Source of the DNA: a virus | DNA length: 42,164 nucleotides | Reading direction: 5' to 3' (one strand) | Virus record (IMG/VR): IMGVR_UViG_3300047678_000454 | Location: 1 to 42,164 of that record | Shown here: positions 230 through 38,538 of the stretch, one piece after another | Numbering within the stretch: the stretch's first letter is position 1 | Layout of the letters: each line of letters starts with the position of its first letter | Translations under genes and position numbers: made by a program | Notes under the pieces: generated by a model | The model's input: the letters and a program-made list of their open reading frames with translations, nothing else | The model's database searches: none | Told to the model about the DNA's origin: nothing

Positions 230-1870
230 CTACAGAAACTTTACCACGGGCACGCCGTTCGACATTCTGACCATCACGGGCACGTCGTTGCTCGGTCCGA
301 TCCAAAAACTCCGGTTCGCCATATTGTTTGTAATGGCGAAAAGGCTCCACGTGTTGCTCGGATAATACGTGCCGCCGAAGGCGGTGATCGGAGCGTAGAA
401 ACTGGCTGATCGGGCGCTGCTGCCGCGCACCCGGAAAAACCGCGACGCGAGGGTGAAATCGTAGGCGATATTGAAGGTCACCAAGCCGCTGTTCGTTGAG
501 GCTGTATAGGTCGTGAATTTACCCCAACTCGTCGTGCTGATCAGGTTTGTAGAACTCTCCACTTGCCAGCCGTTAATCAGGTTGGTTTGCATCACCGTCA
601 GATTCGCCGCCAACTGGGTGCCATCGTCGGCAAAACCTTCGATCTTCACGAAGGCATTCGAGGTCACTAAATCGACCAGCGGGGCGCTGAGCTGGCTGTA
701 TGAATAATGGGTCGCCGCATTGGTATCAAATCCCGAGGCCCAGAGTGACGCCAGCGCGGCCGTGGCGACGTCCACATACTTCTTCGTGGCGGCGTCTGTA
801 AGGTGCACGGGATCGTCGAAGGCGGCATGCTGACCGATGAATGAATTCGTGCGGCCGATATACTCGGGATGATCTAGGCCGTAGAGTGTCAACGCGCCGA
901 CGTTTGTGCTGCTCGCGCCGACGACGCTGATGCTAATATTCGTGAAGGTCGTGAACCCGTTCGTGATGGAGAACCAGGCGTTTGTTCCCGTGTAGCTGCC
1001 GACGAGTTGTTCGAACTGATTTGTCGGCGGTGCCAGCCCGCCGCCACCGAGACTTGGCGTGGCCAATTTCCATGAGTAAAGCTGTGAGAAACGTCCGATG
1101 TAATTCGAGCCATTGAAGGTCAGGACGGGCAGGTTCGTGAGCGTGAACAGTGAGCTGCTGTAAACGCCATTGCTGAAGACGCTCGTCGTGACGAAATTCG
1201 TGCCCGGCGCTCCTACCGGAATACCGATGGTGACATAGGCAATGGAGCCGATGACGCCGGTGTTCGTGACCGTGGCCGCGCTGCCGGGCGCAAGGTTCGT
1301 GGCGGTGAAAGAGAAGTTCGTGATGCCACCGCCGACGCCGACACCGCCGCCGCTGTTCGTGGCGATGTAGTTCAGGAAAAGACTCAATGGTGTCGGCGGC
1401 AGATAATCCGTAGGTGACGCAAAGCCATCGAACGTCAGGATCGAATTCGTATTGGACGCGTGCAGCTCGATGGTGGCCGCCGGCAAGGTGTTGGTGATGG
1501 AGACGACTCCGTAAAAATTGCCAATGTCGTTCGTGTCCTGGCTGCTGAAGGTGATTTCCCAGATGAGATTGGTGTCCTGGTCACGCGTGGCATTGGCCAA
1601 GAGTTGCCACCGCTGAGAGGTGTAAAGTCCGGTCTCCCAAACGACGTTGGTGCTGCCGCCGGCGACGACCATGATCTGAAGATTGTTTGAGTCCAACGTT
1701 GGCAGCCGGCCGCGCCAGTTGAAATCCACGCGATCGCCGTTCGTCAGCCAGTTGTTGCTCTGGTCGTAGTTTTTGAGGAGCAGATCCGCACTCCCACCGA
1801 TGAACGGCATGCCGGCAAAGCTGTTGAGGAGCGAAACTAAAACTGTGGCGATGATGATGATTTTTTTCAT
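230..1870 (-). CDS. Exported Asn/Thr-rich tail-fibre-like protein
   Basis: The 546-residue product begins with a typical signal peptide (MKKIIIIATVLVSLLNSFA, residues 1-19). Residues 20-150 form a beta-rich N-terminal region, followed by a Gly-rich hinge near 173-182. At 358-367 it has TDAATKKYVD, a motif seen in many phage tail fibres and collar-like proteins. Residues 437-483 (VESSTNL ... SRFFRVRG) resemble a C-terminal domain frequent in verrucomicrobial secreted proteins, and a short tail-like module follows. The gene starts one base after the stop of the tail tip gene, which is the usual place for a receptor-binding fibre. A signal peptide on a phage fibre is unusual: it may be a true virion protein with a membrane-targeted N-terminus, or a protein secreted from lysogens. 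The assignment to the tail is inferred from position and the AATKKYVD motif. Confidence 0.7.
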   Translation of the reverse strand: MKKIIIIATVLVSLLNSFAGMPFIGGSADLLLKNYDQSNNWLTNGDRVDFNWRGRLPTLDSNNLQIMVVAGGSTNVVWETGLYTSQRWQLLANATRDQDTNLIWEITFSSQDTNDIGNFYGVVSITNTLPAATIELHASNTNSILTFDGFASPTDYLPPTPLSLFLNYIATNSGGGVGVGGGITNFSFTATNLAPGSAATVTNTGVIGSIAYVTIGIPVGAPGTNFVTTSVFSNGVYSSSLFTLTNLPVLTFNGSNYIGRFSQLYSWKLATPSLGGGGLAPPTNQFEQLVGSYTGTNAWFSITNGFTTFTNISISVVGASSTNVGALTLYGLDHPEYIGRTNSFIGQHAAFDDPVHLTDAATKKYVDVATAALASLWASGFDTNAATHYSYSQLSAPLVDLVTSNAFVKIEGFADDGTQLAANLTVMQTNLINGWQVESSTNLISTTSWGKFTTYTASTNSGLVTFNIAYDFTLASRFFRVRGSSARSASFYAPITAFGGTYYPSNTWSLFAITNNMANRSFWIGPSNDVPVMVRMSNGVPVVKFL

Positions 1871-5364: not shown

Positions 5365-5829
5365 TCAGGGGTTTTGCGGCGCCAACAGCCAGAGCCAGGC
5401 CGGCGGATTTAACGTGTTCGTAGATGGCGCACCGACCATGTTCAGGATCGGCGGATAATAATCCGACGTGCGGCTGACGACACTGTTGCTGAACGTCACC
5501 GTCAAATACTGGCCGGAATTGTAGAGCTGAACAAAACGCTCGCTGAGAATCGGATTCGTGGTGCCGATGCTCGTCGCCGGAATGGGCACCGTCTTGAAGG
5601 CGATCCACGTGCCATCGTTCGTGCCGGCATGGAAAAACACGGCCGTGTCCGGAAAATAATTCACCCCGTTGACCGTCACGAAATTATTGGTCGCCGGCGG
5701 ATATGCGGCCAGTTGAAACGTGACCCCGACTTCATTCGTCCCTACCGGCGTCGTGTGGAACGGCGGCGTCGCGCACGCGGGTAGAACGAGCGCGAAACCG
5801 AGCATGGTGATGAGGAGGTTTTTTTTCAT
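5365..5829 (-). CDS. Predicted exported lipoprotein in the tail module
   Basis: The 154-residue product starts with MKKNLLITMLGFALVLPAC, a lipoprotein signal with lipobox LPAC (Cys19). The remainder is beta-rich with many Asn/Thr pairs and aromatic residues, ending in a Pro-rich WLWLLAPQNP tail. Neighbours are a small unknown gene upstream and NlpC/P60 downstream, so it lies inside the tail-tip gene block. The leader AGAAATAAATTATG is A/T-rich with no Shine-Dalgarno site. The role is unknown. Surface exclusion of related phages or a membrane receptor-shielding function is possible for a lipoprotein in this position, but this is inference only. Confidence 0.65.
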   Translation of the reverse strand: MKKNLLITMLGFALVLPACATPPFHTTPVGTNEVGVTFQLAAYPPATNNFVTVNGVNYFPDTAVFFHAGTNDGTWIAFKTVPIPATSIGTTNPILSERFVQLYNSGQYLTVTFSNSVVSRTSDYYPPILNMVGAPSTNTLNPPAWLWLLAPQNP

Positions 5830-6048: not shown

Positions 6049-8052
6049 TTATTTCTTACCGCCGCCGCCCTGGTTGGTGTTCACCCGCAGCACGGACGGA
6101 TTGCCGACGGGCATAAAGGGAAATCCGCCGAAGCGGGAATAATTACTGAACTTCGTGTTGCACGTCGTGCGCTGACCATCGCAGCCGGGGAACATTTTCA
6201 CCACGTCGCCGGCGCTGGGAGCATTGAGGAGTGGTTGCGCGAGATAGAGCGTCACCTGGCCACCGCTGATCGCGAGATTATCGCTCACCATGCGGCTTTG
6301 TTTGACGCCGGCCGTGGTGATCTGCACGTAACCGGCAAAGAAAAAATGCGCGGCGAGCGTCGCGCCGTTGGAGCTGGTGATCGTGCCCACGATCAAGGTG
6401 CTCGTGCTGGCGTTGTAACTGACCACGGCGGCCGTCCACGTCCACGCCGCAATATCCAAGCCGCAGTTCGACTCAAACAGCACCCAATTGCAATTCGCCT
6501 GGTAAAGCCGGCGCGGGATCGTGCGCTCGAAAATGCTGCTCATGCTCGCGCAGTCCACGGAAATAAACGGGGGCTCCGAATCGCACGTGCCCACCTCCCC
6601 GGCGAAGTAGCAGCGCAAATTGGAAACACTGTTGCCCGAAACATCGCCCTCGTAAATTTCCACGAGCAGCGGCCACTCCAATTGAAAGGGCAGCAGCAGC
6701 GCCAGCGGATTGCCGGAAAAATTCCGACTCTTGATCGTCACGCTCTGACGTTCGAGATTATCTGTCTCCGTGATTTCCGTGTTGTCGAATGGCTGGCTCA
6801 CCCATGAATGGGTGCCGTCCGAAAGGGAGCGCTCGAAGCTGGTGAAATACCAAACCGTGGGACTGCTCGGAATGGTGAGCGTGAACTTATACAGCATCGC
6901 CGTTGCGGGCAGCGCACCCATCGTGGTGCCAATCGTCTCGCCGCTCACGGTCGTCAGTTCCCAGGGCAATTCTTTGAACGCGATCGTGGCCACCGCGAGA
7001 TCCGGCCGGGTGAACGCAACGGAAATTTTTAGCGCATCAAAACGCGCCAGGATCAAAGACTCGACGCGCGTCGTCGCAGCCGTGAACGCCGTGCCGATCG
7101 CTCCGGAGAGCGTCAGTGTGTTGCCGCTCACACTGTTCACTTTCACGGGCACGCGATTCACCAGGTCATCGAGCAGGAGGAAATTATTTCCGCTCAACGC
7201 CGAGCCGTCCACCACACTCAACGTCGTCGCGCTCGATGCCACGTTGGCGGTGAGCTGTGATTCACTGATGCCGGCCGGGAGCCAGAACGCCTTCGCTTCA
7301 CCACTGCGATCCAGAAAAAAGCGCAGGAGGTTTTGACCGTCGAGATTTTGCAGCGTGAATGATTGCGTCACCCGGCGGCGACTGCGTTGGGTGAAATACT
7401 GGCTCTGTTGCGCGCGCAGGGCACCGATGCTTTGCCAACTCACATCGTTTTCAGAAGTTCCGGAACGCGGCGGCGTCGCCCAGTTCGGCGAGAACGGAAA
7501 CAGTGGCGGCGTGCCGCTGCCGGCAGCGAGGCCCGTCGGCGGCGTGAACGTCGCCGGCGTCAGCGAATAGGTGTTGTCGTTTTCAACGAAATCAAATTCC
7601 ACGCTGGCGAGCGTGTCATTGATCAACGTCGGATCCGGGATGCTGTTCAGCCTGCCTACGCAGAGCGGATAACTCACGCGGGAAAACGGCGCATTGCTGG
7701 CCGGCTGCACACTCGGTGCAGCGGTGTCATCGAGGAGCACGTAAAACGCCGCGGTGATTGCCGGCGTCGCACTCGGTTGCGTCAAGCCCGGCCAGAACGG
7801 ACATAGCACCGCCTGCGTGGAGAGATCCTGCAAATTGTTCCGCAGATTGGTGATGGCCGTGTATCCATTCAACAGCGCGGAATATTTTACCGACAAGCGC
7901 AACGTATCGCCCGTGAGCCGGCGCGTCTCGCGCCCGGTGAGGCCACGTTCGTAGCTCGCCGGCAGCGCGGCCTCGATCTGGACAGCACTGGTCCATGACG
8001 GCGCGTCATCGAGCAGGAAGGCCGGATTAGAGTTGAACGTGACTGCAATCAT
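6049..8052 (-). CDS. BR0599/DUF2163-type distal tail protein
   Basis: Starting at the ATG at 8052 gives 667 residues. The N-terminal half is a beta-rich domain; the C-terminal part has the hallmarks of the phage BR0599 family: paired cysteines in NCNWVLFESNCGLD and the closing GCDGQRTTCNTKF ... FGGFPFMPVGNPS motif. In B3- and D3112-like phages a protein of this family follows the tape measure and forms part of the distal tail. The C-terminal cysteine pairs are likely structural. A longer frame runs upstream but would overlap the preceding gene and starts with Arg/Pro-rich sequence, so the internal start (MIAVTFNSNPAF) is preferred. The fusion of the N-terminal domain with the BR0599 domain makes it longer than many family members. 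Confidence 0.75.
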   Translation of the reverse strand: MIAVTFNSNPAFLLDDAPSWTSAVQIEAALPASYERGLTGRETRRLTGDTLRLSVKYSALLNGYTAITNLRNNLQDLSTQAVLCPFWPGLTQPSATPAITAAFYVLLDDTAAPSVQPASNAPFSRVSYPLCVGRLNSIPDPTLINDTLASVEFDFVENDNTYSLTPATFTPPTGLAAGSGTPPLFPFSPNWATPPRSGTSENDVSWQSIGALRAQQSQYFTQRSRRRVTQSFTLQNLDGQNLLRFFLDRSGEAKAFWLPAGISESQLTANVASSATTLSVVDGSALSGNNFLLLDDLVNRVPVKVNSVSGNTLTLSGAIGTAFTAATTRVESLILARFDALKISVAFTRPDLAVATIAFKELPWELTTVSGETIGTTMGALPATAMLYKFTLTIPSSPTVWYFTSFERSLSDGTHSWVSQPFDNTEITETDNLERQSVTIKSRNFSGNPLALLLPFQLEWPLLVEIYEGDVSGNSVSNLRCYFAGEVGTCDSEPPFISVDCASMSSIFERTIPRRLYQANCNWVLFESNCGLDIAAWTWTAAVVSYNASTSTLIVGTITSSNGATLAAHFFFAGYVQITTAGVKQSRMVSDNLAISGGQVTLYLAQPLLNAPSAGDVVKMFPGCDGQRTTCNTKFSNYSRFGGFPFMPVGNPSVLRVNTNQGGGGKK

Positions 8053-8101
8053 TAAAAGTGTGCCGGTGGCGTGGATCGCACGTCCGCCGGCGTGTGGTGG
8101 A

Positions 8102-8350
8102 TCAGGAGCCGGCGGGAGCCGTGTTTGCTTCCACAGCAGCGGCGAGCTCGGTGGCTTTCGCATCCAGCGTGACACCGAGATCGGTGAGCGGTTGCAACTG
8201 TTCGGCGGTCGCGCCATTCGCGAGCGCGGCGGTCACGGCCGCATCTTGCGCGGCTTTGATGCCGTTGATGACCTTGAGCGCTCCGTCCATCACGGTGGTG
8301 GCGCGGGTGACGATCGGACCGAGAACTGCGATTTGTTGTGTGCCTGTCAT
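8102..8350 (-). CDS. Small Ala-rich helical tail-region protein
   Basis: The 82-residue protein starts at an ATG that overlaps the stop of the upstream membrane protein (ATGA), with GGAACACC before it. It is Ala/Thr-rich and predicted to be mostly helical, with heptad-like spacing over residues 15-80. It lies between the tape measure and the BR0599-type protein. No family is recognised; a minor tail or chaperone role is possible. Confidence 0.55.
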   Translation of the reverse strand: MTGTQQIAVLGPIVTRATTVMDGALKVINGIKAAQDAAVTAALANGATAEQLQPLTDLGVTLDAKATELAAAVEANTAPAGS

Positions 8351-8510: not shown

Positions 8511-10757
8511 TCAGGCGCTGCGCACGCGGTGAAGGTTTTTGCCGACCACGTCCATGATGTATTTCTCGTGGGCATCGTTGCGCTCGATGTGATCCTGCAC
8601 CGCGCGCATATCGGTGAAGGAATAAATGCTCACGTTGCTGCCGCCACCGCCGCCACTCATCAGCGCGGCCGTTTGATCGGCCGGGAGAATGGTTCCGGCG
8701 GTGTCCGGCACAAAGAGTTCCGGCCCGCGTTCGCCGACCAGTGAGTAACGGCCCATGGGCGGACGGCCGCCATCGGCAAACGCACCGCCGAACATCGTGG
8801 ATAATTCCGCCGCGCCGATGAAGCCCGGCGCCGCCAGCGCGGCGCCGCCGAACGTCGCGATCGTGGCGAGCGTTGCCGCCGGCGACCAGATCGCGGCCGA
8901 TGCGGCGGCGGCCGGCGCACTGGCGGCCACCGATGCCGCCTGCAATCCGCGACCAACTGTGGCCATCATCACTTGCGTCAGCACCCAGCGCACGCCCATC
9001 TGCACGATGCCCTGCACGATCTCGCCGATGATGGAATTATAAATGTCCGAGAGCGCTTGTTTCCAAGTGCGCGTGCCCATGATCAAACCGGAGATGCCGT
9101 GACTGATGCTTTGCACGGCCGTATTGAACACGCTCCCGAACGTCTGTGCCGATTCGCGCGCGAGATTGTTCAGGTTCAGCAGCTGCACCTTGACTAGTTG
9201 AAATTGATATTGGAACGAGCTCGCGCCCTGCGTCGTCTGGATTTTGTTTTGCAGATCCACCTGCTGGATCATCAGCTCGTTTATCTTTTGCTGGATTTGT
9301 AGCTGCGCAGCCTTGTCCGTGGTGCCGTTGTATTGCCCCTGCAATGAGTTGATCACGGCCGCATTTTGCGCAAGGAGATTTTGGAGCAGCGGCACGGAAG
9401 CGGCATCGCGCTGGCGATCGCTGAGGAGCGGGTTGCCATCGAGCGCGCGGATTTTTCCTTCCGTCTGCGCGCGGTTGATGGTCTGCTGCAGTTCGGCGAT
9501 CTTCTCGAGCTCACTGCGATAGGCCTTCTCGGCGACCGTGCGTTTCTTCGCCGCCTCCTGCAGCAGATGCGTGTATTCGGCTTCCCCAATTTCTCCGGAG
9601 AAATAAAACGACTCCGCCAGATTCTTGCGCTCCTGGTATTCCACGCCGCTCAACTGCCCGCGCAGCACGCCGTCGGCATTCTGTTTTTCCGTGAGCTCAT
9701 CCTCGAGGGCCCGGAGCCGTTCGGAAACGTCGGCGCGCTCGGCGGCGCGGATCTTCCCGACGCTGGCTTCCTGCTCGCGGGATGATTTCTCGGCGGCCGC
9801 GCGCTCGAGGTCCGCGATCTTTGAGGCTTCCGCCCGCTTCAGCTCGTCCACGCGTGCGAACACTTCTTTGTTATATTTCGGACCCACAAACGAGTCAGAC
9901 TGTTGCAGCGTGAGCATCAGCTCCTGGCGCAATTTCTCAAAACGCTCATGTTCCGCCGCTATGAGTTTATCTGTTCCCGAGAGCACGTCCGGCGTGGAAC
10001 GATCCATCAGCTCCTTCAGCTTCGCCTTGGCCTTGACCTGCTCTTCGGAGACGTGCTTGAACTGGCTGGCCACCCAGTCATTTACTTCCGCCGGCGAGGC
10101 TTGCGCCAAATCTTTTTGAACGTCGTGCGTGGTCTGATCCTTGAACGGATCGCCCGTGTGAAAAAATTCTTCCACAGTTTCCGTGTTGTTCCGGCCCAGC
10201 GATCCGTCCGCTCGTTTGTAAAGTGGGATGCGCGGGCTCTTACCGAGATAATCGGAAAATTCTTTAGCGCTGGCGTCGGAGAGCAATCCGGCATTTTTGA
10301 AGAGCTGAATTTTTTCAAGTATGCCCGGCACCTTGTCGAGCGCCGCCACCAGGTCATCAATTTTCTTCGTGCCGTCGTCCACGCCCCCGAGCACGGCATA
10401 CCATTCGAGACTGAACACCGCTGCCGCCGCACCGGCAGCCACGAGGTAAGGCGTGAATGCCGCCAGGCTAAAACCCATCGTGCCCACTGCCTGCACAATG
10501 CGCGGCGTCTCCATCGCCAGCATCCGGATTGGATCAATACCCGCTACAATGCCATCCGTCATCGCGCGCGCGACGTGGCCCAGCTCCATCATTGCCATGC
10601 GGTTTGATCCCAGACCTTTCGTCAATTCCTTGGCGTGCTTGGTGGCCACCTTCAGCGGCGCACTGATCTCCGGAACTTTCTTCTCGACGAAGTCCTTCAG
10701 ATCAGCGGCTGCCGGCATGGTGTCCGCGACCACTACAATTTTAATCGGCTCGCCCAT
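8511..10757 (-). CDS. Tail tape measure protein
   Basis: At 748 residues it follows the tail assembly chaperone pair, the fixed place of the tape measure gene. The N-terminus (residues 1-60) is polar; residues 90-125 include a hydrophobic stretch. Residues about 230-480 are long charged coiled coils (Glu/Lys/Arg/Gln-rich, with many ERAAAEK-type heptads). The C-terminus has Ala-rich membrane-like segments near 590-660 and the common GRYSLVGERGPELFVP motif near 695. It sets tail length by spanning the tail lumen and may pass into the host membrane during DNA entry. The leader CAAAAAATAAAGTATG is A/T-rich and overlaps the chaperone stop region. Confidence 0.88.
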   Translation of the reverse strand: MGEPIKIVVVADTMPAAADLKDFVEKKVPEISAPLKVATKHAKELTKGLGSNRMAMMELGHVARAMTDGIVAGIDPIRMLAMETPRIVQAVGTMGFSLAAFTPYLVAAGAAAAVFSLEWYAVLGGVDDGTKKIDDLVAALDKVPGILEKIQLFKNAGLLSDASAKEFSDYLGKSPRIPLYKRADGSLGRNNTETVEEFFHTGDPFKDQTTHDVQKDLAQASPAEVNDWVASQFKHVSEEQVKAKAKLKELMDRSTPDVLSGTDKLIAAEHERFEKLRQELMLTLQQSDSFVGPKYNKEVFARVDELKRAEASKIADLERAAAEKSSREQEASVGKIRAAERADVSERLRALEDELTEKQNADGVLRGQLSGVEYQERKNLAESFYFSGEIGEAEYTHLLQEAAKKRTVAEKAYRSELEKIAELQQTINRAQTEGKIRALDGNPLLSDRQRDAASVPLLQNLLAQNAAVINSLQGQYNGTTDKAAQLQIQQKINELMIQQVDLQNKIQTTQGASSFQYQFQLVKVQLLNLNNLARESAQTFGSVFNTAVQSISHGISGLIMGTRTWKQALSDIYNSIIGEIVQGIVQMGVRWVLTQVMMATVGRGLQAASVAASAPAAAASAAIWSPAATLATIATFGGAALAAPGFIGAAELSTMFGGAFADGGRPPMGRYSLVGERGPELFVPDTAGTILPADQTAALMSGGGGGSNVSIYSFTDMRAVQDHIERNDAHEKYIMDVVGKNLHRVRSA

Positions 10758-10760
10758 ACT

Positions 10761-11066
10761 TTATTTTTTGGTTTCGGGATTGATTACTTTCAGCAGCAAG
10801 TTGCGCTGCGCACTCCAACTTTTTGAATCACCCTGCGCGGCGGTCATCAGCAGCAGGATCGTTTCCGCCTCCCGCCGGCGATGCGCTTCCGACAGGGCCG
10901 TGAGCCGTTCCCAGCTCAACTCGATCGCCGCATCGAGACTCAGGCCGCACCGGGCTGCAAGATCGCAGGCAACCGTGAGGAGATCATGCGTTCGATCAGC
11001 TCCGGTGGCAGGTTGCGCAGATTTTCCGCCGCGCGTTCGTTTTGGCGGGCGGCATAGGTAAAAAAA
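10761..11066 (-). CDS. Tail assembly chaperone T-like extension, reached by -1 frameshift
   Basis: The frame has no credible start of its own but stays open across the end of the upstream chaperone frame, in the -1 phase. At the T_TTT_TTT slip site a ribosome would leave the zero frame after residue 86 and enter this frame, adding 99 residues and giving a fusion of about 185 residues. This matches the G/GT arrangement of lambda-like and many other long-tailed phages. The C-terminal part (LLTVACDLAARCGLSLD ...) is Leu/Ala/Arg-rich and helical, as in other T domains. It sits immediately before the tape measure gene, which the chaperones are expected to coat during tail assembly. Confidence 0.75.
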   Translation of the reverse strand, partial: FFYLCRPPKRTRGGKSAQPATGADRTHDLLTVACDLAARCGLSLDAAIELSWERLTALSEAHRRREAETILLLMTAAQGDSKSWSAQRNLLLKVINPETKK

Positions 11067-11317
11067 CCGTTCGCATTCACCTCCCGCACGGCGGCGTTCA
11101 CGCGTTCGTAACTCTCCGGGTGCAGCGCTTCCACCAGCCCGCGATTCACACCACATACGAGCGCGGCAAAACCGAACTCATCATCGAGCAACTTCATCGC
11201 CGCCGGATAATCCTTCAGCTTGAGCTGGTTCACGGTGAACTCGCCGGCGCGCGAATCCTCGAACGTGACTTCGATCACTTTTTTTCCGAACAGCGTGGTG
11301 GCAGCATTTTCATTCAT
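10940..11317 (-). CDS. Tail assembly chaperone, G-like
   Basis: The preferred start at 11317 gives 125 residues, MNENAATTLFGKKVIEVTF at the N-terminus, followed by a helical region containing LKDYPAAMKLLDDEFG. Size, position before the tape measure, and an overlapping -1 frame place it as the shorter chaperone. It would be made at high level, with a minority of ribosomes making the longer fusion. A longer upstream start would run into the exported glycosidase-like gene. Confidence 0.75.
   Translation of the reverse strand: MNENAATTLFGKKVIEVTFEDSRAGEFTVNQLKLKDYPAAMKLLDDEFGFAALVCGVNRGLVEALHPESYERVNAAVREVNANGFFTYAARQNERAAENLRNLPPELIERMISSRLPAILQPGAA
11060..11066 (-). other. -1 ribosomal frameshift site T_TTT_TTT
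   Basis: On the minus strand the zero-frame codons are GGT TTT TTT ACC, so seven consecutive T residues form a perfect X_XXY_YYZ heptamer. Slipping back one base continues as TAC CTA TGC in the second chaperone frame, which is open to 10761. The site lies within the overlap of the two frames. A downstream pseudoknot was not established. Confidence 0.75.
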
Positions 11318-11321
11318 ACGA

Positions 11322-13211
11322 TTAAGGCGAGTAGTAAAAGGAGCCGTTGGTGTAGCGCAGGTAGTAACCATTAGCGGGGGAGTTGACGGTGTTGAGTTGG
11401 GAGAGCAGCGGCATGGCGCGAATCAGACAGGAAGTATTGGCCGCCAGGTTCGTGGAGAAGGAAGCGCCGTTGCCCAGCACGGTGCCGGTGCGAACGTCGA
11501 TAAAATTGCAAACGTAGTTCGTGCCGATGCGCAAATCTTTCAGCGCCACTGTGAGGTTCGTGGCCGTGCTGCCGGACTCGTTGGCGAGCACCACCGCCAC
11601 CGATCCATCGTAAAGCGGCTTGGCCACGATCATGCCCACATTTTTGCCGCAGTCGCGGACGTAGTAGGGAAAGTTTTGCAGGGGATCGTTGTGAATCCCA
11701 CAAACGCCGGCGTTAGTCCATTGCGAGTAGTTCGCCAGGGAGTCATTAAAGCCGGAGAAGAATGGACTCCAGCCGCACAACGCCATGAGGTTGACAGATG
11801 CGGCCGAGCCATCGGCCTCGATGATGTGGCCGCGTAGAACTTTTTCCGCATTGGGATACGTGTTGACGTAGCGGCGGTATTCGCGGCAGGCCTGAATGGA
11901 GGTTGATCCATAATTCGCCGAATCCGCCGGCGCGTCATACTGCAGCGCGTTGTGCGCCGTGTAGAGGTCTGGCATCGTGACTGAGGGCACGCCGCCGTTC
12001 GGATTTTCGTAGGCAGTGAAGGAAATGGGGCGGGTGCGCGCCGGGATCCACGGTGATCCCGGATCGTTCCAGACGTGGCGTCCGAAGACGCTGTAGTTCG
12101 GATAAAGGATGTTCCACGCGATGGTGTTTTCGATGGCCAGGAATTCCGGGATCGTGCAGTGCGTATCGTTGTCTTCGATCGTGTCAACACCCCACAAATA
12201 AAGTTTTTGGATGTCGTTGGAGATGAAATCGGGCGTCATGAGCGGATTCCAATTGGTGTGCGCGGCTTGCGCCCAGTAGGCATCGCGGCCCACGGCGGCC
12301 ACGGCGGAGTAAGTGACGTAAACGTTCTGGTTGGCGTAGTTCGCATTCGTCAGCACCCAGAAGCCGTCCGCGCTGGAATAGCCCGGCTGATTCGTCGCCT
12401 GATAGCCAGCCATGTTAATCATGAGTCCGATCTGGATGCCATTGGTGTGCAGAAAATCGACGAGGTTGGTAAATCCTTTGGGGTAGACGTTGGTCCGCTC
12501 ATAAAGGAATCCGTCGCTATCACGAATGAAACTGCCGACGTCCAGATTCACGCGCACAGGCAGGCCGTTCGATTTCAAATTTGGGATGATTCCGTTCGCG
12601 ACATACGCCAGGATATTCGTGCGGATCATGTTGTCATTCGTCATTGGTTTGACGGTCCCGCCACCCAAATATGGCTGGTAGGTAATGACGAGCGGCGCGT
12701 TGGTGACGGCGCAATGGATGGCTCCGATTGGGAAAGGGGATTCCATGCCCGCGGCAGAAAAACCCACGACCTGGCTGTTGGTGTAAACATACAGTCCGGA
12801 AACTTGGGTGGAAGGAATCAGCCCGGTGATGTTGCCGCTGGCTATGGCACCGGAAAATGAATTGCCCGTAAGGTTGCCAAAGACATCGACGCTGAAAGCC
12901 CCGTTCCAGTTGGTAAAAGTCAGCCCGCGAATGTTGGCCGACGAGTCAATGACCGGCCAGTAATTACCGCCGTTGGTGGCTAGGATCGCGCCGGTGACAT
13001 TGTTGGTTTGCGCGGAGATGCTGGTGGCGGTAATCGTTCGCGCATTGAGATTCGTCGCCCACACGGCCGTGAACTGTGCGTTGCTTTTCCCCAAGGCGCC
13101 GGGGCTCTCGGGATTCGGGATAATGTCAACGGCCCGCAGCCGCGACGCACAGGCCAGGGCGCAAAACGTGCCGAGCAGAAATAATTTTTGGAAGCGGGGA
13201 ATAGTGATCAT
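11322..13211 (-). CDS. Exported GH27-like (alpha-galactosidase-like) protein in the tail module
   Basis: The 629-residue product starts with a signal-like segment (residues 1-27, FLLGTFCALACA core). Residues 30-150 are Asn/Thr-rich and fibre-like (GKSNAQFTAVWATNLNAR). Residues about 160-480 fit a GH27-type barrel: NLDVG at 222-226, RDSDGFLYE at 230-238, YPKGFTNLVDFLHTNGIQIG at 243-262, and WGVDTIEDND at 341-350 at the place of the family's catalytic WGVDYLKYD strand. The C-terminal part is a beta domain with Asn/Thr repeats. It lies between the repeat-rich membrane-anchored protein and the chaperones. Family members remove terminal galactose or related sugars; here the natural target could be a host surface polysaccharide. 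Substrate and activity are inference, and the catalytic residues are not exactly canonical. Confidence 0.68.
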   Translation of the reverse strand: MITIPRFQKLFLLGTFCALACASRLRAVDIIPNPESPGALGKSNAQFTAVWATNLNARTITATSISAQTNNVTGAILATNGGNYWPVIDSSANIRGLTFTNWNGAFSVDVFGNLTGNSFSGAIASGNITGLIPSTQVSGLYVYTNSQVVGFSAAGMESPFPIGAIHCAVTNAPLVITYQPYLGGGTVKPMTNDNMIRTNILAYVANGIIPNLKSNGLPVRVNLDVGSFIRDSDGFLYERTNVYPKGFTNLVDFLHTNGIQIGLMINMAGYQATNQPGYSSADGFWVLTNANYANQNVYVTYSAVAAVGRDAYWAQAAHTNWNPLMTPDFISNDIQKLYLWGVDTIEDNDTHCTIPEFLAIENTIAWNILYPNYSVFGRHVWNDPGSPWIPARTRPISFTAYENPNGGVPSVTMPDLYTAHNALQYDAPADSANYGSTSIQACREYRRYVNTYPNAEKVLRGHIIEADGSAASVNLMALCGWSPFFSGFNDSLANYSQWTNAGVCGIHNDPLQNFPYYVRDCGKNVGMIVAKPLYDGSVAVVLANESGSTATNLTVALKDLRIGTNYVCNFIDVRTGTVLGNGASFSTNLAANTSCLIRAMPLLSQLNTVNSPANGYYLRYTNGSFYYSP

Positions 13212-13214
13212 GTT

Positions 13215-13850
13215 TTAGTTGGGGTATAGAGTTAAACTGCTGCCGGTCCATTTCGATGAACTGGCCGGCGAACTACTTGGATAAATGGCCGACGTGCTGC
13301 CGATCCATTGCGACGAGATGCCTGCCACGCCACTCGGATAAATGCCATTGGTTGAATTCGTCCACAGCACCGAGTCAGAGGGGTTGGGAATGATGTTGCC
13401 GGGCGGCGTGGAGCTGAAGCCGCCGCCGCTGCCACCGACATTCGTGCTGGCAGTTCCGCCGGCGATGTAACCGCCAACGATATTCGTGCGCGAATAATTG
13501 GTGCTCGATCCGCTGCCAGCCGTGAGGTTGGTGCGGGAAAAATTGGTGTTGAAGCCGCCCGCACTGCTCAGGTTGGTGCGGGAAAAATTGGTGTTGAAGC
13601 CGCCCGCACTGCTCAGGTTGGTGCGGGAAAAATTGGTGGAGAAAATCCCGGATCCAAAAAGATTCGTGCGCGAGAAATTCGTATTGTAGCCGCCGCTGCC
13701 CGTGAGATTGGTGCGCGAATAGTTCGTGCTGAAACTTTGCGTGAGCGATTGGCCGTGGGCCGGAAACGCGTTCACGAGAAAAATCACCCATGCGATTAAC
13801 ACAGCCAGCACGATCAGTTCGGGAATGTTCCTGACTAAAAATTTTCTCAC
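13215..13850 (-). CDS. Membrane-anchored repeat protein, fibre-like
   Basis: A GTG at 13850 gives a 211-residue protein whose start avoids the upstream hairpin. Residues about 9-28 (ELIVLAVLIAWVIFLVNAF) are a membrane anchor or uncleaved signal. It then has six copies of a 15-residue unit with core TNFSRTNL and Gly/Ser spacers, two of them identical in DNA, and three copies of a C-terminal 19-residue unit ending in IYPS or LYPN. It shares an IIPNP segment with the glycosidase-like protein, suggesting a common architecture. The gene lies four bases upstream of that gene. It may form a beta-helical stalk or surface fibre, but no family match is claimed. Confidence 0.6.
   Translation of the reverse strand: MRKFLVRNIPELIVLAVLIAWVIFLVNAFPAHGQSLTQSFSTNYSRTNLTGSGGYNTNFSRTNLFGSGIFSTNFSRTNLSSAGGFNTNFSRTNLSSAGGFNTNFSRTNLTAGSGSSTNYSRTNIVGGYIAGGTASTNVGGSGGGFSSTPPGNIIPNPSDSVLWTNSTNGIYPSGVAGISSQWIGSTSAIYPSSSPASSSKWTGSSLTLYPN
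13531..13638 (-). repeat. 45-bp tandem coding repeat
   Basis: Units at 13531-13575 and 13576-13620 are identical, and a third continues for about 18 bases before diverging. Each encodes 15 residues with core TNFSRTNL. Copy number could change by slippage without breaking the frame. Confidence 0.85.
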
Positions 13851-13863
13851 AATGGTTGGCGAT

Positions 13864-13909
13864 GTAGCGGCGCGGCAGTCATCCGGCATTGCCGGACAAC
13901 CGCCGCGCC
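13864..13909 (+). repeat. REP-like GTAG hairpin, long nested form
   Basis: GTAG at 13864-13867 is followed by stem GGCGCGGC (13869-13876) pairing with GCCGCGCC (13902-13909), with an inner TCCGGC/GCCGGA stem at 13882-13896 closing on ATT. It lies between the 51-residue gene and the repeat-protein gene and is not followed by a U tract, so a simple intrinsic terminator is unlikely. Confidence 0.65.
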
Positions 13910-13917
13910 CGTGGTTT

Positions 13918-14073
13918 TTAAGTCGCGGCGGTTTCGGACTCGTCGTCGTGTTTCTCCGGCTTGGTGCTGCCGGGCTTGGCGCTCGTATCCGGGCGGATCA
14001 GGTTTTTCGGCGGCGTCTGGTCGAGCTCCGGATTTTTCACCTTATTCACCGCGTGAGTTTTTTCAGTATTCAT
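13918..14073 (-). CDS. Small hydrophilic protein next to the tail tube
   Basis: This 51-residue frame begins MNTEKTHAVNK and is rich in Lys, Pro, Asp and Thr, probably disordered. It starts 11 bases after the tail tube stop. No family is recognised. A small gene is often found between tail tube and chaperones, so it could be an assembly factor, but the coding call rests on position and clean start-stop fit. Confidence 0.5.
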   Translation of the reverse strand: MNTEKTHAVNKVKNPELDQTPPKNLIRPDTSAKPGSTKPEKHDDESETAAT

Positions 14074-14084
14074 AGCGTGTGAGC

Positions 14085-14654
14085 TCAGGAGTTGTTGATC
14101 AGGCCGACGTTAAACGAGCTGTAGAGCACGTTGGCTTCCCATTGCGGCTTGATCACACTGCCCTCTTTGCTGGCCATGCCGCCGACGATGCGCAGCATCA
14201 CATACACATCGAGGTTGAGCATGAAGGCGTTGTTTTGGTCGTAGTGCTCCATGTGAAACCACCCTTTGCGCGGCGGCGCGGAGAGCGGATTGTAAACGCC
14301 GCCGGCGCTCGTGAGTTTTTGCGACGTGCGGAAAAACACTTCCATCGCCAGCGCGGAAATGTCTTCCGTGGTGAACTTGAACATGCCCTCCGCACCTTTC
14401 TCGATGATGTCATAAAGCTGCATGCGGCCGGGCATGGGCTTGTAGATTTTTTCATCGCCCATGGACTTGAAGCCGCTGTCATCCCAGTCAGCGATCGCGC
14501 CGACGTCGAGGTAGAGCGGATCCGTGGGATCAGGCTTGTTCGTGCGTGAACTGGCGCCGGCGCTGCTGCCGGAAGCGGGAATGGTGATGGTATCGCCGTC
14601 GCGGAAGAAGAATCCGTGTTTGCCGACGGCGTAACTGCCTATGGGTAGTGACAT
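14085..14654 (-). CDS. Major tail tube protein
   Basis: The 189-residue protein begins MSLPIGSYAVGKHGFFFRDG and has a beta-rich composition with segments such as PLYLDVGAIADWDDSGFK typical of non-contractile tail tube subunits. It follows the gp37-like connector and precedes the chaperone and tape measure genes. Many copies would stack to form the tail tube. No sheath protein gene accompanies it, which supports a siphovirus tail. The leader ACATAAAATAATATG is A/T-rich with no Shine-Dalgarno site. Confidence 0.72.
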   Translation of the reverse strand: MSLPIGSYAVGKHGFFFRDGDTITIPASGSSAGASSRTNKPDPTDPLYLDVGAIADWDDSGFKSMGDEKIYKPMPGRMQLYDIIEKGAEGMFKFTTEDISALAMEVFFRTSQKLTSAGGVYNPLSAPPRKGWFHMEHYDQNNAFMLNLDVYVMLRIVGGMASKEGSVIKPQWEANVLYSSFNVGLINNS

Positions 14655-14706
14655 ATTATTTTATGTATTTTGTTGGTTGGTTTCGCCGTGAATCGTTCAC
14701 GGAAAT

Positions 14707-15255
14707 TTATAGTGTGGGACCGGCACCCGTTTTGGTTTCTATCCAGCCGCCTTTGCATTCCAATTCCAGGGCGATGGCGGCGCGGCCCGGATGGTTCGCT
14801 TTTTCTTTTTCGTTTTTCACGATCATCACGTCGGATCCTGTCGGCGTGCAGATCACGCCGCTCGGATTCTCGAGCAACTGCCCGGTGACGAACGGCAGCG
14901 TGAGCGCTTCCAGCTTGTAAGCGCCGGGATTGTTGGCCGTGCCAAACAAGGCGTCATTGCGCTTGCCCAGGACACGATCCGAGATCAGCAGTGCGAACGG
15001 CACGGTCCGGCGCGTGAGAATTTTGGCGAACTTCACTTCCGTCTCCCAATGTTCCGCCAGGGGAACGATCAGGCAGATACGCTGCTCGCTGATGAGCAAC
15101 TGTTGAAACGCATCGGTGAGCGATTCGCTATCGAACAATTCCACCCGGAGAAACGCCGCCGTCGTATTGTCGGCGAGCTTCACGGCCGTGACTTGCGTCT
15201 TGAGCGCGGCGGCGATGTCGCCCACGGAAACGAGATGTGCGGTGGCCGGTGTCAT
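14707..15255 (-). CDS. gp37-like tail completion protein
   Basis: The 182-residue protein overlaps the upstream gp36-like gene by ATGA. Its position between gp36-like and tail tube genes, and its mixed alpha/beta character with LISEQRICLIVPLAEHWE, match the gp37/DUF1834 position in Mu-like phages. It is expected to act at the head-tail joint or as a tail terminator. Sequence similarity is weak by eye, so the name is mainly positional. Confidence 0.55.
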   Translation of the reverse strand: MTPATAHLVSVGDIAAALKTQVTAVKLADNTTAAFLRVELFDSESLTDAFQQLLISEQRICLIVPLAEHWETEVKFAKILTRRTVPFALLISDRVLGKRNDALFGTANNPGAYKLEALTLPFVTGQLLENPSGVICTPTGSDVMIVKNEKEKANHPGRAAIALELECKGGWIETKTGAGPTL

Positions 15256-15914: not shown

Positions 15915-16472
15915 TTATTGCGTGGATTGAGAGTAGAGCAGCGCCGCATTGACGTTCGTGCCGCAAGTCGTGCTGGCCTGCGTGCATTGCATCTTGCGGA
16001 TGTTGCTCAAGGTTGTGGCGGGAATGTTCGTCCAGAACACGTTGGTGAACGCCGCCGTGTTACCGACGAGCGGCACTGTCCAGGTGATTGGATAGCCACC
16101 GTTGCCTTTCGTCCACGTGAAGCCGTCGGCCGTCACGTCGAACTTCACCGTGTAGTTGGTGGTGGTCGAAGACGGGATTGCCGCGTTAGTGGACCACACC
16201 GCCAGGAAGAGCGTCACGCCCTGATTCTGGCGGATCGTCTTGATGTAGGTGTTCGTGCCGCCCGGCGCATTCGTGATCGTCTGACTGTTGGTCAGAGCGA
16301 ACTGCACCCAGTTGGTGTCGTTATACGCGAAGTTGGGCTGGCCGGTCTGGTAGCCCGCGGCGGCGAGGTTGGTCAACTGCGCTTGTGCCGGCAACGCCGA
16401 CAATGCGAGCAGTCCGATAGTAGCGCAGAGCAAGAGCATCTGCGTGAGGTCGAATTTTTTCGTGTTGTGCAT
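15915..16472 (-). CDS. Exported Asn/Thr-rich protein next to the major capsid gene
   Basis: The start at 16472 gives 185 residues with a clear signal peptide (LLLCATIGLLALSALPAQA, cleavage near residue 31). The mature part is beta-rich with many Thr-Asn pairs and four residues of Cys near the C-terminus region (QCTQASTTC). It lies immediately downstream of the major capsid gene, where a head-completion gene would be expected, yet it is predicted to be exported. No domain is recognised. It may be a lysogeny-expressed surface protein or an unusual virion component. The leader GAAATAAAAATATG is A/T-rich. Confidence 0.65.
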   Translation of the reverse strand: MHNTKKFDLTQMLLLCATIGLLALSALPAQAQLTNLAAAGYQTGQPNFAYNDTNWVQFALTNSQTITNAPGGTNTYIKTIRQNQGVTLFLAVWSTNAAIPSSTTTNYTVKFDVTADGFTWTKGNGGYPITWTVPLVGNTAAFTNVFWTNIPATTLSNIRKMQCTQASTTCGTNVNAALLYSQSTQ

Positions 16473-16501
16473 ATTTTTATTTCGATGATTTATTTTGGTT
16501 G

Positions 16502-16526
16502 GTAGGGCGGAGCTGCTGCTCCGCCC
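16502..16526 (+). repeat. REP-like GTAG hairpin, 9-bp stem
   Basis: GTAG at 16502-16505 runs into stem GGGCGGAGC (16505-16513), loop TGCT and perfect partner GCTCCGCCC (16518-16526). It is just downstream of the capsid stop on the minus strand, without a U tract in that direction. Confidence 0.7.
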
Positions 16527-16537
16527 CACGATTCAGA

Positions 16538-36214: not shown

Positions 36215-38254
36215 TTATTCGTCGATAAAAACCGGCTGCATCGCGCGGCGTTGTTCACGTTCCTCTTCCCGCGCCAGGCGTGCCGCCGTGCGCTCAAATT
36301 CCTCCTGCTCCACACCGCGCCCCGTGGCCGCGCGTAGAAAGCGGGATTGCGGCGCCGGCGCCGTGTTCCGGTTATCCACCGGCACCACGTTTTGATTTCG
36401 GGTTTCGATTTGCGTGATGCCCGGCTTGCCGTCGGGCCGCGTGGCCTTGACCACGCGCACGAGCGCCTGCGCGTTCTGACGCGCCGCCGCCAGGCCGATG
36501 TCCGGGAATTCCCCATAGCCCAGCTTGCGCAAGTTGAACCGTGCCTGGCGGTCGGTCATCTCCGCATCGCCCAAAATGCTCTCGGCTTTGAAGCCCTTGA
36601 AATCGTTCACCAGAATCACCTTGCCCGGCGCGTCGAGAAACGGGTTGTAATGCACCCGCACCTGCGCCCGGTGAAACTCCCTCATCCAGTCTTGCCCGAA
36701 GTGAAACACCTGGCTAAGTCCATCCATGAGCTTCACGGTGGTCTTGACGATGAAACCTTTCACCGTCAGCGTCGGCGAGATCACCGGCGCGAACATCCAT
36801 TCGCTGCCCGCATCAAGCGCGCGCAAATTCTTCGGCGACTTGTCGCTCCAAAATTCATTCGGGATCCATTTGCCGTAGCGCGAGTGCAGGATGCGCTGCG
36901 CGTTGTGTTCGTTGATCGCTTCGTGCAGCGCCTTCACCACGGCATCGAGCGGCAGAAAATGTTTGCGCGGATCCGTCGCACCGGCGCGGCAGCTCATCAG
37001 CAGCTTCGTCGTCTCTTCGTCGTCGCGCATGTTGCGGCCGACTTGCCCTGGCAAAAACGAGAGCTTCGTCCACAGCTTGTTGAACAGCGTCTCGATGATC
37101 TTCCGATGCGGCGAGTGAACGTGCTGCACCTTGATGCCGGCGCGTTTCAGCGTCTCGTGGACGAGGTTGGATTTGCTGATGCCCATTTCGAGAAACATCC
37201 CGCGTGGCATCCCGTGCTCGCGAAAAGTCGTGTGCATCGTCGCTGTCAGATCTTCGGCGCGATACGAACTGCGCGGCCGCGCCGTGAAGGAAAAGCCCGG
37301 AATGAAATAGCTGCGATGATCGGCGGGCACGATGAATTGGAAACGGCCGCACATCACGCCGAACTTGTCCCAGCACTTGTCGCCGGGCCGTTCGATCGGC
37401 ACCGTCAAAATCAAATTGATCGTCGCATCGTCAATCGTCCACCACTCACCCGGCTCAATCATCCGCTCCTCGCCGGTGGTCTCATCCACCGTGATCTGGA
37501 GCGAGCCAGGGCTTTGGACGTATTGCAGCCACGCCCCGCGTGGCGAGCGATAGGCCCGCACCGTGGTTTCGCCCACGTCAACCTGCCGCCGCATGGATTC
37601 GGTTAGCAACGGCTTGCCGGCCTCTATGCGTTCCTGTAGCAGCCGACGTGAGTCGGCTCCAATCTCTCCGGTCTTCAGCGCGTGCAACGTCGCTTCCTGC
37701 GGACTCCCCGCCGTCATCGTGCGATTCGATTGCAGCGTGTGTGCCGCAACGCTGCTGGCTTCGGTTTCCGTGAAAGAATATTTCGCCGTGCGGCCGGGCG
37801 GAGATTTTTTGGCGAGCGCATTGACCAGCACTGAGCGTTCGGGTGTGCTCTCCCAGTTGGCACTGGCACGTTTGATTGCCTTGTTCCAGCGGCAAAACTC
37901 CACGGCGGAAACTCCGGTTTCCTTGCGCACTTTTTTCCAATCGTGCGTGGGATTCTGTTCGCGGTAATTCCGCACCGCCTCGAACTTGGCCAGGCACAAT
38001 TGCCCGTGCTCGATCTGCGCCGTGGTGAGCCGGCGCTGTGGCCTCACCGCTAGGTGACGTGCCGGGTGATTCATGACCCCATTATCTAAAGGCGGCACCG
38101 GATCTCCCGGCACACCACATCCCGCGCACGCAGCGGCCTCAGCCGCAAAATTAGAATCCGGCTGACGGACGGGCTCAAGGCCTGTATCCGCACGGGCAAT
38201 CGCACCTGTGTTCTCGGTTAGGCCGTCGCCGGAAAATGTTGAATCTTGGTTCAT
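36215..38254 (-). CDS. MuA-like DDE transposase, catalytic triad read as D-E-E
   Basis: The start at 38254, two bases after the upstream TAG, gives 679 residues. An N-terminal DNA-binding region includes TAQIEHGQLCLAKFEAVRNY (78-97). The catalytic RNase H core has first acid Asp275/Asp276 (WWTIDD), a strand MFLEMG (353-358) where the second acid is Glu356 instead of the usual Asp, and third acid Glu388 (HRKIIETLF). The C-terminal part includes HFGQDWMREFHRAQVRVHYNP and a basic region. It would join phage ends to target DNA. It starts with an Asp/Pro-rich segment, and a REP-like element is read in frame at residues 198-206 (IGADSRRLL). A longer upstream start would overlap the preceding gene by 80 bases. 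Confidence 0.82.
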   Translation of the reverse strand: MNQDSTFSGDGLTENTGAIARADTGLEPVRQPDSNFAAEAAACAGCGVPGDPVPPLDNGVMNHPARHLAVRPQRRLTTAQIEHGQLCLAKFEAVRNYREQNPTHDWKKVRKETGVSAVEFCRWNKAIKRASANWESTPERSVLVNALAKKSPPGRTAKYSFTETEASSVAAHTLQSNRTMTAGSPQEATLHALKTGEIGADSRRLLQERIEAGKPLLTESMRRQVDVGETTVRAYRSPRGAWLQYVQSPGSLQITVDETTGEERMIEPGEWWTIDDATINLILTVPIERPGDKCWDKFGVMCGRFQFIVPADHRSYFIPGFSFTARPRSSYRAEDLTATMHTTFREHGMPRGMFLEMGISKSNLVHETLKRAGIKVQHVHSPHRKIIETLFNKLWTKLSFLPGQVGRNMRDDEETTKLLMSCRAGATDPRKHFLPLDAVVKALHEAINEHNAQRILHSRYGKWIPNEFWSDKSPKNLRALDAGSEWMFAPVISPTLTVKGFIVKTTVKLMDGLSQVFHFGQDWMREFHRAQVRVHYNPFLDAPGKVILVNDFKGFKAESILGDAEMTDRQARFNLRKLGYGEFPDIGLAAARQNAQALVRVVKATRPDGKPGITQIETRNQNVVPVDNRNTAPAPQSRFLRAATGRGVEQEEFERTAARLAREEEREQRRAMQPVFIDE
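37636..37663 (+). repeat. REP-like element, copy 6, inside the transposase
   Basis: GTAG at 37636 and a perfect AGCCGAC-GTGA-GTCGGCT hairpin at 37641-37658. In the transposase frame it encodes IGADSRRLL (198-206). Confidence 0.85.
38044..38057. repeat. CACCGCYAGGTG hairpin, copy C
   Basis: TCACC-GCTA-GGTGA lies in the transposase N-terminus, encoding HLAVRP at residues 67-72. The fifth pair is T-A. Confidence 0.6.
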
Positions 38255-38256
38255 GG

Positions 38257-38538
38257 CTAGTCTTGGATCGGGCGGAGAAATTTTTCCACGCGCGCGAACT
38301 CGTCTGAATCTTTCGGGATGTATTGGACTTCGCCGCATGCCTTGAGCAGGGCGATCACATCTTCCAACGTCTTCACTTTTTCCCAGTCCACCTCCATGAA
38401 GTGCTTCTTGAAATAAGCATCGTCCTCATCCTCATCTACACCTGGTAAATAGCCGTTGGGCATGTAGCCCTCTGCGCAGAACGGGCATTCCGCCACGCCT
38501 TCCGGCGTATCCTTGCCGCATTTAAAACAGGATCTCAC
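38257..38538 (-). CDS. Zinc-ribbon-like protein (93 aa)
   Basis: The GTG start has GGAGGTGGTCAA before it. The first 21 residues hold Cys4, Cys7, Cys18 and Cys21 (CFKC ... CPFC), a probable zinc ribbon; the rest is acidic with a helical end. It lies upstream of the transposase and is coupled to the previous gene. It may regulate transcription or bind nucleic acid. Confidence 0.62.
   Translation of the reverse strand: MRSCFKCGKDTPEGVAECPFCAEGYMPNGYLPGVDEDEDDAYFKKHFMEVDWEKVKTLEDVIALLKACGEVQYIPKDSDEFARVEKFLRPIQD

Follow-up and report, generated by a model that had tools for sequence, protein, structure and literature searches.

The 629-aa ORF in the tail region of the virus record analysed here (IMG/VR; the whole stretch of 42,164 bases is called the window below) is an accessory, moron-like gene in a slot with exchangeable content; the closest relatives, in which the site is otherwise conserved, lack it. 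According to sequence searches and a structural model, its main domain is a GH27-type barrel followed by a C-terminal beta-sandwich (clan GH-D). The nucleophile column of this domain is changed, and signal-peptide-like N-termini recur on the proteins filling the same slot in related phages. Taking this into account, we put the probability at roughly 40% that the product of this gene is a fibre-type accessory protein, exported by the Sec route, which acts late in infection on a glycan of the host surface.

The window phage looks like a transposable siphophage, because it encodes a Mu-type portal (PF06074, E 1e-55, Pfam), a MuB-like transposition ATPase (phrog_296, E 2.6e-14) and a tape measure protein. 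Given that the putative transposase (36215-38338) has no match in PHROGs, its match to Arm-DNA-bind_3 being weak (E 0.08), the term “transposable” rests on the ATPase and the portal. The host is probably a member of Verrucomicrobiota: the portal was matched in 41 of 374 genomes and the tail protein encoded at 6049-8217 in 12 of 387, all searched genomes being Verrucomicrobiota, and thus this host is likely rather than shown. The genome set was the phylum of G001, which includes an Akkermansia muciniphila contig (Verrucomicrobiota). Every match of these two proteins to named phages is below 60% identity.

Sixteen close IMG/VR contigs, fetched with alignments of two neighbouring tail proteins, served as relatives (the portal alone as query found none in IMG/VR). 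The slot is flanked by the tail-tube-type gene on one side and by the chaperone or tape measure gene on the other, and is intact in 12 of the 16 relatives, L060 and L061 holding an identical one. The two relatives closest by capsid and tail-tube scores (L114 and L115) lack the 629-aa gene: one fibre-type gene is directly followed there by the chaperone gene, and in L114 its stop overlaps the next ATG. In the other relatives, the slot is occupied by different large proteins, most of them with signal-peptide-like N-termini. At the slot boundary of the window, two tail-chaperone-type ORFs overlap in different frames (10761-11156 and 10940-11317, both on the minus strand), resembling programmed frameshift pairs; pairs of a similar kind are also seen in L067, L075, L115, and L122.

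Seven slot proteins (L062, L065, L066, L067, L068, L069, and L076) have a homologous N-terminal stem followed by unrelated C-terminal ends, the window protein being without this stem; a scan with the stem returned only already known contigs. The protein of L065, whose slot is cut by the contig end, terminates in an SGNH esterase (phrog_8480, 6.8e-33), the only end confirmed as an esterase, that of L067 in a foldon (23.9 bits, cut-off 21), and that of L066 in a GH-D-like domain, matched by blastp to the window domain with 3.6e-8 across 113 residues. An end-to-end alignment of the L066 and window domains was discarded, as only their first third aligns well. A recognisable GH-D-like domain is present in two of 13 intact slots (the window and twelve relatives). 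By eye, we also see SGNH-like ends in L062, L064, and L069, LamG-like ends in L044 and L047, and a beta-helix in L076, none of them confirmed by Pfam or PHROGs (L064 was outside the PHROG comparison). In the Verrucomicrobiota prophages L044, L047, L145, and L147, the slot protein has 690-849 aa, and three of the four match tail-fibre families: tail fiber (6.1e-25) and tail spike (4.0e-7) in L147, tail fiber (1e-8) in L047, head decoration (4.7e-13) and tail fiber (1.4e-5) in L145.

The preliminary description had placed the ORF among tail genes, and it is indeed surrounded by tail-tube-type, fibre-like, and chaperone-type ORFs and by the tape measure gene (Table 1). All three motifs quoted there are present (LDVG at residues 223-226, FLHTNGIQIG at 253-262, and WGVDTIEDND); the last was given at residues 341-350 and lies in fact at 340-349. 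The gene starts three bases past the stop of the gene ahead of it, and the chaperone ATG follows within a few bases of its end. A chance ORF is ruled out by length, fold, and neighbours, and composition gives no sign of recent foreign DNA, GC being 0.555-0.58 across the gene and matching the surroundings.

Table 1. Features of the variable slot and its surroundings; coordinates refer to the window.
Feature	Coordinates	Strand	Basis and remarks
Tail tape measure gene	8511..10757	-	phrog_1538, E 1.2e-22
Tail-assembly-chaperone-type gene, downstream slot boundary	10940..11317	-	phrog_1442, E 0.049; position and conservation; ATG at 11317
Accessory slot gene, 629 aa	11322..13211	-	ATG; signal peptide, Asn/Thr-rich part, GH-D domain, C-terminal beta domain
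C-terminal beta-sandwich, Melibiase_C-like, residues about 520-608	11388..11654	-	Pfam, E 9.7e-5; pLDDT
GH27-like barrel, residues about 173-519	11655..12695	-	Pfam, PDB, profile searches, AF2 model
Beta-4 segment WGVDTIEDND, residues 340-349	12165..12194	-	Alignment
Asn/Thr-rich fibre-like part, residues 28-170 (boundary approximate)	12702..13130	-	Sequence
Signal-peptide-like N-terminus, residues 1-27	13131..13211	-	Heuristic; by eye, A22 or A27 probably precedes the cleavage site
First slot gene, 224 aa, hydrophobic N-terminus	13215..13889	-	15-residue TNFSRTNL repeats
Tail-tube-type gene, upstream slot boundary	14085..14654	-	Position and conservation, without family match

The 629-aa protein has no match in PHROGs at E 0.1, known tail fibres included, in NCBIfam, or, at 1e-3, among 20 other slot proteins, and no relative of its Asn/Thr-rich part was detected by phmmer among the 21 slot proteins compared. 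Relatives of the GH27-like protein were found neither in named phages, nor, at 1e-5, by direct search of the 387 Verrucomicrobiota genomes, nor in IMG/VR (also with L066 added) and among GTDB contigs, where the short seed patterns make a negative result weak evidence. The first slot gene has a homologue in L114 and only weak repeat matches in L115. Its Asn/Thr-rich repeats of 15 residues (TNFSRTNL...) and those of 14 residues, FGTNAPGSLTASN, in an ORF of L075 (5951-6748, plus strand) possibly form a beta-solenoid.

By sequence, the GH27 resemblance of the domain is beyond chance, yet weak. The Melibiase_C match scores 22.8 bits, just under the Pfam cut-off of 22.9, Melibiase_2 is matched at 15.7 bits, below the cut-off of 23 (E 0.0098), and among PDB sequences yeast alpha-galactosidase 3lrm is matched with E 0.0012. 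Against a profile built from 30 GH27 proteins of Verrucomicrobiota, the window scores 14.7 bits and L066 20.7 bits; the corresponding hhalign values are 74% and 94%. The reverse profile, made from the window and L066 domains only, matched three loci in 387 Verrucomicrobiota genomes at E <=0.001. Judged by eye, two of them are typical GH27 and one is GH36-like, that is, all belong to clan GH-D, and one locus coincides with a Melibiase_2 match from our GH27 survey. The Pfam and PDB matches together with this reverse search constitute the model-independent support for the fold.

The single-sequence AF2 prediction for the whole protein was useless (mean pLDDT 33.5). The model based on an alignment of 27 rows (window, L066, and 25 GH27) reached pTM 0.70 and mean pLDDT 62.7; the first half of the barrel and the C-terminal beta domain are well predicted (pLDDT mostly 87-94 at residues 530-599), and pLDDT drops below 50 at residues 403-442 and 447-468. 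The best Foldseek match of the model is alpha-N-acetylgalactosaminidase 4do4 (1.1e-15), and the best one in the structure comparison is rice alpha-galactosidase 1uas (Z 22.6, 323 residues, 4.0 A), the top 26 matches of the latter comparison (VIA) being GH27-type by title. Among predicted viral proteins, only the alpha-galactosidase of Tetraselmis virus 1 matches the model at E <=0.001. Because GH27 rows are present in its alignment, the model is supporting rather than independent evidence of the fold. The model is GH27-like, and the refuting outcome named in the preliminary description, a fold other than a TIM barrel, did not arise.

The catalytic columns were read in a MAFFT alignment of the window, L066, and 25 GH27 rows, using the established catalytic positions of GH27, in which DDxW is the galactose-binding motif. 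The nucleophile column (KxD, end of beta-4) contains Asp in 25 of 25 GH27 rows, Asn348 in the window, and Glu442 in L066, and the Lys column two residues before it contains Glu346 and Lys440, respectively. A two-residue gap lies beside the nucleophile column, and Asp347 or Asp349 could be the true partner. The acid/base column (after beta-6) is provisionally assigned to Asp415 in the window and Asn508 in L066; its surroundings are not conserved, with pLDDT below 50, and the conserved Arg four residues ahead is Val411 in the window. In the DDxW motif, the first Asp column is filled (Asp224) and the remainder is gapped. The altered catalytic segment noticed at the outset is thus borne out; of the two catalytic acids, only the nucleophile position is clearly changed, rather than both being missing. 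The proposed alpha-galactosidase is not sustained, a plain enzyme of this type being ruled out by the catalytic columns. Judging from the alignment, the domain, if an enzyme at all, would use the GH27 fold with changed chemistry, and the protein should not be filed as an alpha-galactosidase.

The N-terminus of the protein passes our signal-peptide test, a simple home-made heuristic rather than a trained predictor; 63 of 2000 shuffles of the whole protein also pass, and 269 of 2000 when the shuffling is confined to the first 60 residues. Starts were counted only if they lay within 25 residues; allowing any start in the first 130 residues was too lenient, as 15 of 21 tape measure proteins then pass. 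Near the first start, the test is passed by 11 out of 17 ORFs with 190 aa or more in the slots of the window and of 11 relatives (slot intact, duplicates removed; hand tally), and by 12 out of 21 if ORFs of 110-189 aa are included (hand tally). For eleven core head/tail genes, the figure is 14 out of 157 homologues (summed by hand). Since the sequences are related and no correction for relatedness was made, the Fisher p-values (4.2e-7 for 11 out of 17 against 14 out of 157; 5.2e-9 without the tail-tip protein) are only a guide. Eight of the 14 core passes belong to the tail-tip protein w1872 and are probably false positives; without it, six out of 139 pass. The core comparison leaves out w230 (6/8) and w15915 (5/5), since they are apparently exported, as well as w4686 (0/9), w10761 (0/5), and single window genes. 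Outside the 17 are L061 (the same slot as L060), the partial slots of L064 and L065, and distant loci.

No slot ORF of at least 190 aa passes in L060, L069, and L076, where export-type N-termini appear only from later starts or by eye. All four slot proteins of the above prophages have a signal-peptide-like N-terminus, that of L145 only from a later start. By eye, L144 and L146 resemble the signal-peptide type and L143 does not, and the corresponding protein of L040 and L046, chosen by portal, has no signal peptide; in the distant L070 and L071, the large ORFs of the slot fail the heuristic. In the slot proteins of L065, L069, L068, and L076, the hydrophobic segment is preceded by a Pro-rich stretch about 50-75 residues long; it aligns between L065 and L069 and resembles an extended signal peptide, the start codons being uncertain.

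Because export signals recur on fibre-type proteins, export in the course of late expression is the simplest reading. The product of the 629-aa gene would be synthesised alongside the late tail proteins, cross the inner membrane by means of its N-terminal Sec signal peptide, and end up at the host envelope or beyond it, where the GH27-like domain, with its altered catalytic chemistry, would bind or cut a surface glycan. Such binding or cutting would aid release or lower re-adsorption: progeny could leave lysing cells and debris untrapped, or competing phages could meet fewer receptors. Prevention of reinfection or help in escape, suggested in the preliminary description, may be the purpose of the protein. 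Against the preferred explanation, the tail-gene location and the fibre modules fit a virion tailspike, the window protein lacks the stem of its relatives, Asn348 may mean that the domain is not an enzyme, and to our knowledge no exported phage tail fibre has been described.

The main rival, in our view quite possible, is indeed a virion tailspike or tail fibre, built into the tail, with a hydrophobic N-terminus that serves assembly or is dispensable and a GH27-like domain that recognises or cuts the receptor glycan of the next host. It would account for the gene lying in the tail gene cluster, for the tail fibre and tail spike families matched by the slot proteins of host prophages, for the foldon in L067, and for ends that vary behind a common stem, a pattern known from receptor-binding proteins; exchangeable glycan-active ends as such are predicted by both the export and the tailspike readings. 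However, export-type N-termini recur on unrelated slot proteins, and the closest relatives do without the gene. Tailed phages assemble their tail fibres in the cytoplasm, a process that neither needs nor easily tolerates N-termini of the export type.

The changed columns described above (Asn348, Glu346, and the mostly gapped DDxW) would also suit a catalytically dead, lectin-like GH-D domain, exported or virion-borne, that binds glycan and masks receptors or attaches the particle. Other fillings look lectin-like by eye (the LamG-like ends of L044 and L047), but Asp347 and Asp349 beside Asn348 could serve in catalysis, L066 retains the Lys and has Glu in the nucleophile column, and the slot of L065 is filled by an esterase, so that we consider this reading unlikely. 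An auxiliary metabolic gene, i.e., a secreted glycosidase with which the lysogen feeds on environmental polysaccharide, would agree with the combination of a signal peptide and a GH-type domain, and many Verrucomicrobiota carry GH27 genes (51 of 115 genomes). This is very improbable, however, for a gene inside a tightly packed late tail operon whose slot is filled by fibre-type proteins in relatives; moreover, a consensus scan of the region 10700-14800 gave a single promoter-like match, under the shuffled mean of 2.4 (terminator-like matches: six against a shuffled mean of 5.2, no clear excess). Finally, both Pfam scores lie under the cut-offs and the alignment-free AF2 model is poor, as would be the case for a low-complexity fibre with spurious GH27 resemblance; given that the three loci picked up by the domain profile in 387 genomes are all clan GH-D-like and that the nearest solved folds are GH27, we give this possibility hardly any credence.

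Known systems resemble the window protein in part. GH27 alpha-galactosidases and alpha-N-acetylgalactosaminidases (rice 1uas, human 3h53) have, like the model, a barrel and a C-terminal beta-sandwich, whereas the window protein sits in a phage tail locus, has a fibre-like part in front, and differs from them in the nucleophile column (Asn), the Lys column (Glu), and the mostly gapped DDxW motif. With phage tailspike and tail-fibre depolymerases it shares the tail-locus position, a fibre part with an exchangeable C-terminal end, and a glycan-active domain, but its domain is a GH27-like barrel rather than the usual beta-helix, and its N-terminus is signal-peptide-like. Predicted glycoside hydrolases occur in fibres of Alteromonas phages, including one short HHpred match to alpha-galactosidase in a capsid fibre, export being unmentioned in the available portion of that account (PMC8228385).

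Mosaic adhesive trimer (MAT) proteins of Bdellovibrio have a signal peptide followed by a conserved beta-rich domain, a phage-fibre-like shaft, and diverse C-terminal ends, and bind glycans (PMC10769870); the slot proteins resemble them in architecture, which does not imply homology, and MAT proteins are cellular surface proteins of the predator, not phage genes. Lom of phage lambda is a signal-peptide protein encoded between the tail spike and tail fibre genes, but it is an outer-membrane beta-barrel without a glycosidase domain (PMC12309495). Signal-peptide and SAR endolysins are phage enzymes, too, and exploit the Sec system of the host; they cut peptidoglycan for lysis and are not encoded in a tail-gene slot (PMC6116005). 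These precedents cover parts of the picture, and in the literature searched (largely without subscription journals) we found no phage combining them and recognised nothing on exported tail fibres, or on GH27 domains in tail loci, of Verrucomicrobiota phages.

As a tentative and more doubtful generalisation, a group of temperate siphophages of Verrucomicrobiota might make Sec-exported tail fibres in which a signal peptide and a common stem are combined with glycan-active ends that can be exchanged (GH27-like, SGNH esterase, and others); these fibres would fold in the periplasm or on the surface and coat the host or join virions at lysis. If true, such fibres would be the phage counterpart of the Bdellovibrio MAT fibres, and a conserved slot of export-signal fibre-type proteins with exchangeable glycan-active ends would represent a different use of the receptor-binding repertoire. 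The moderately surprising point is the export signals on fibre-type slot proteins and less the GH27 fold itself. The domains found in phage tail loci are also joined by a GH27-like barrel whose active site is altered.

Export-type N-termini are also seen elsewhere in the window. A small gene after the major capsid gene (15915-16529, minus strand) has a prepilin-like or signal-peptide N-terminus, as do its relatives in L062, L067, L114, and L115, where it is of the FTLTQLLVVVAIIGLL...AxAQ type; five out of five homologues pass the heuristic. The gene after the tail-tip gene (230-1870, minus strand) has a signal-peptide-like start, also in L061, L075, and L115, with six out of eight homologues passing, and a small ORF between tail genes (5365-5829, minus strand) carries a lipobox-like signal peptide (LVLPAC).
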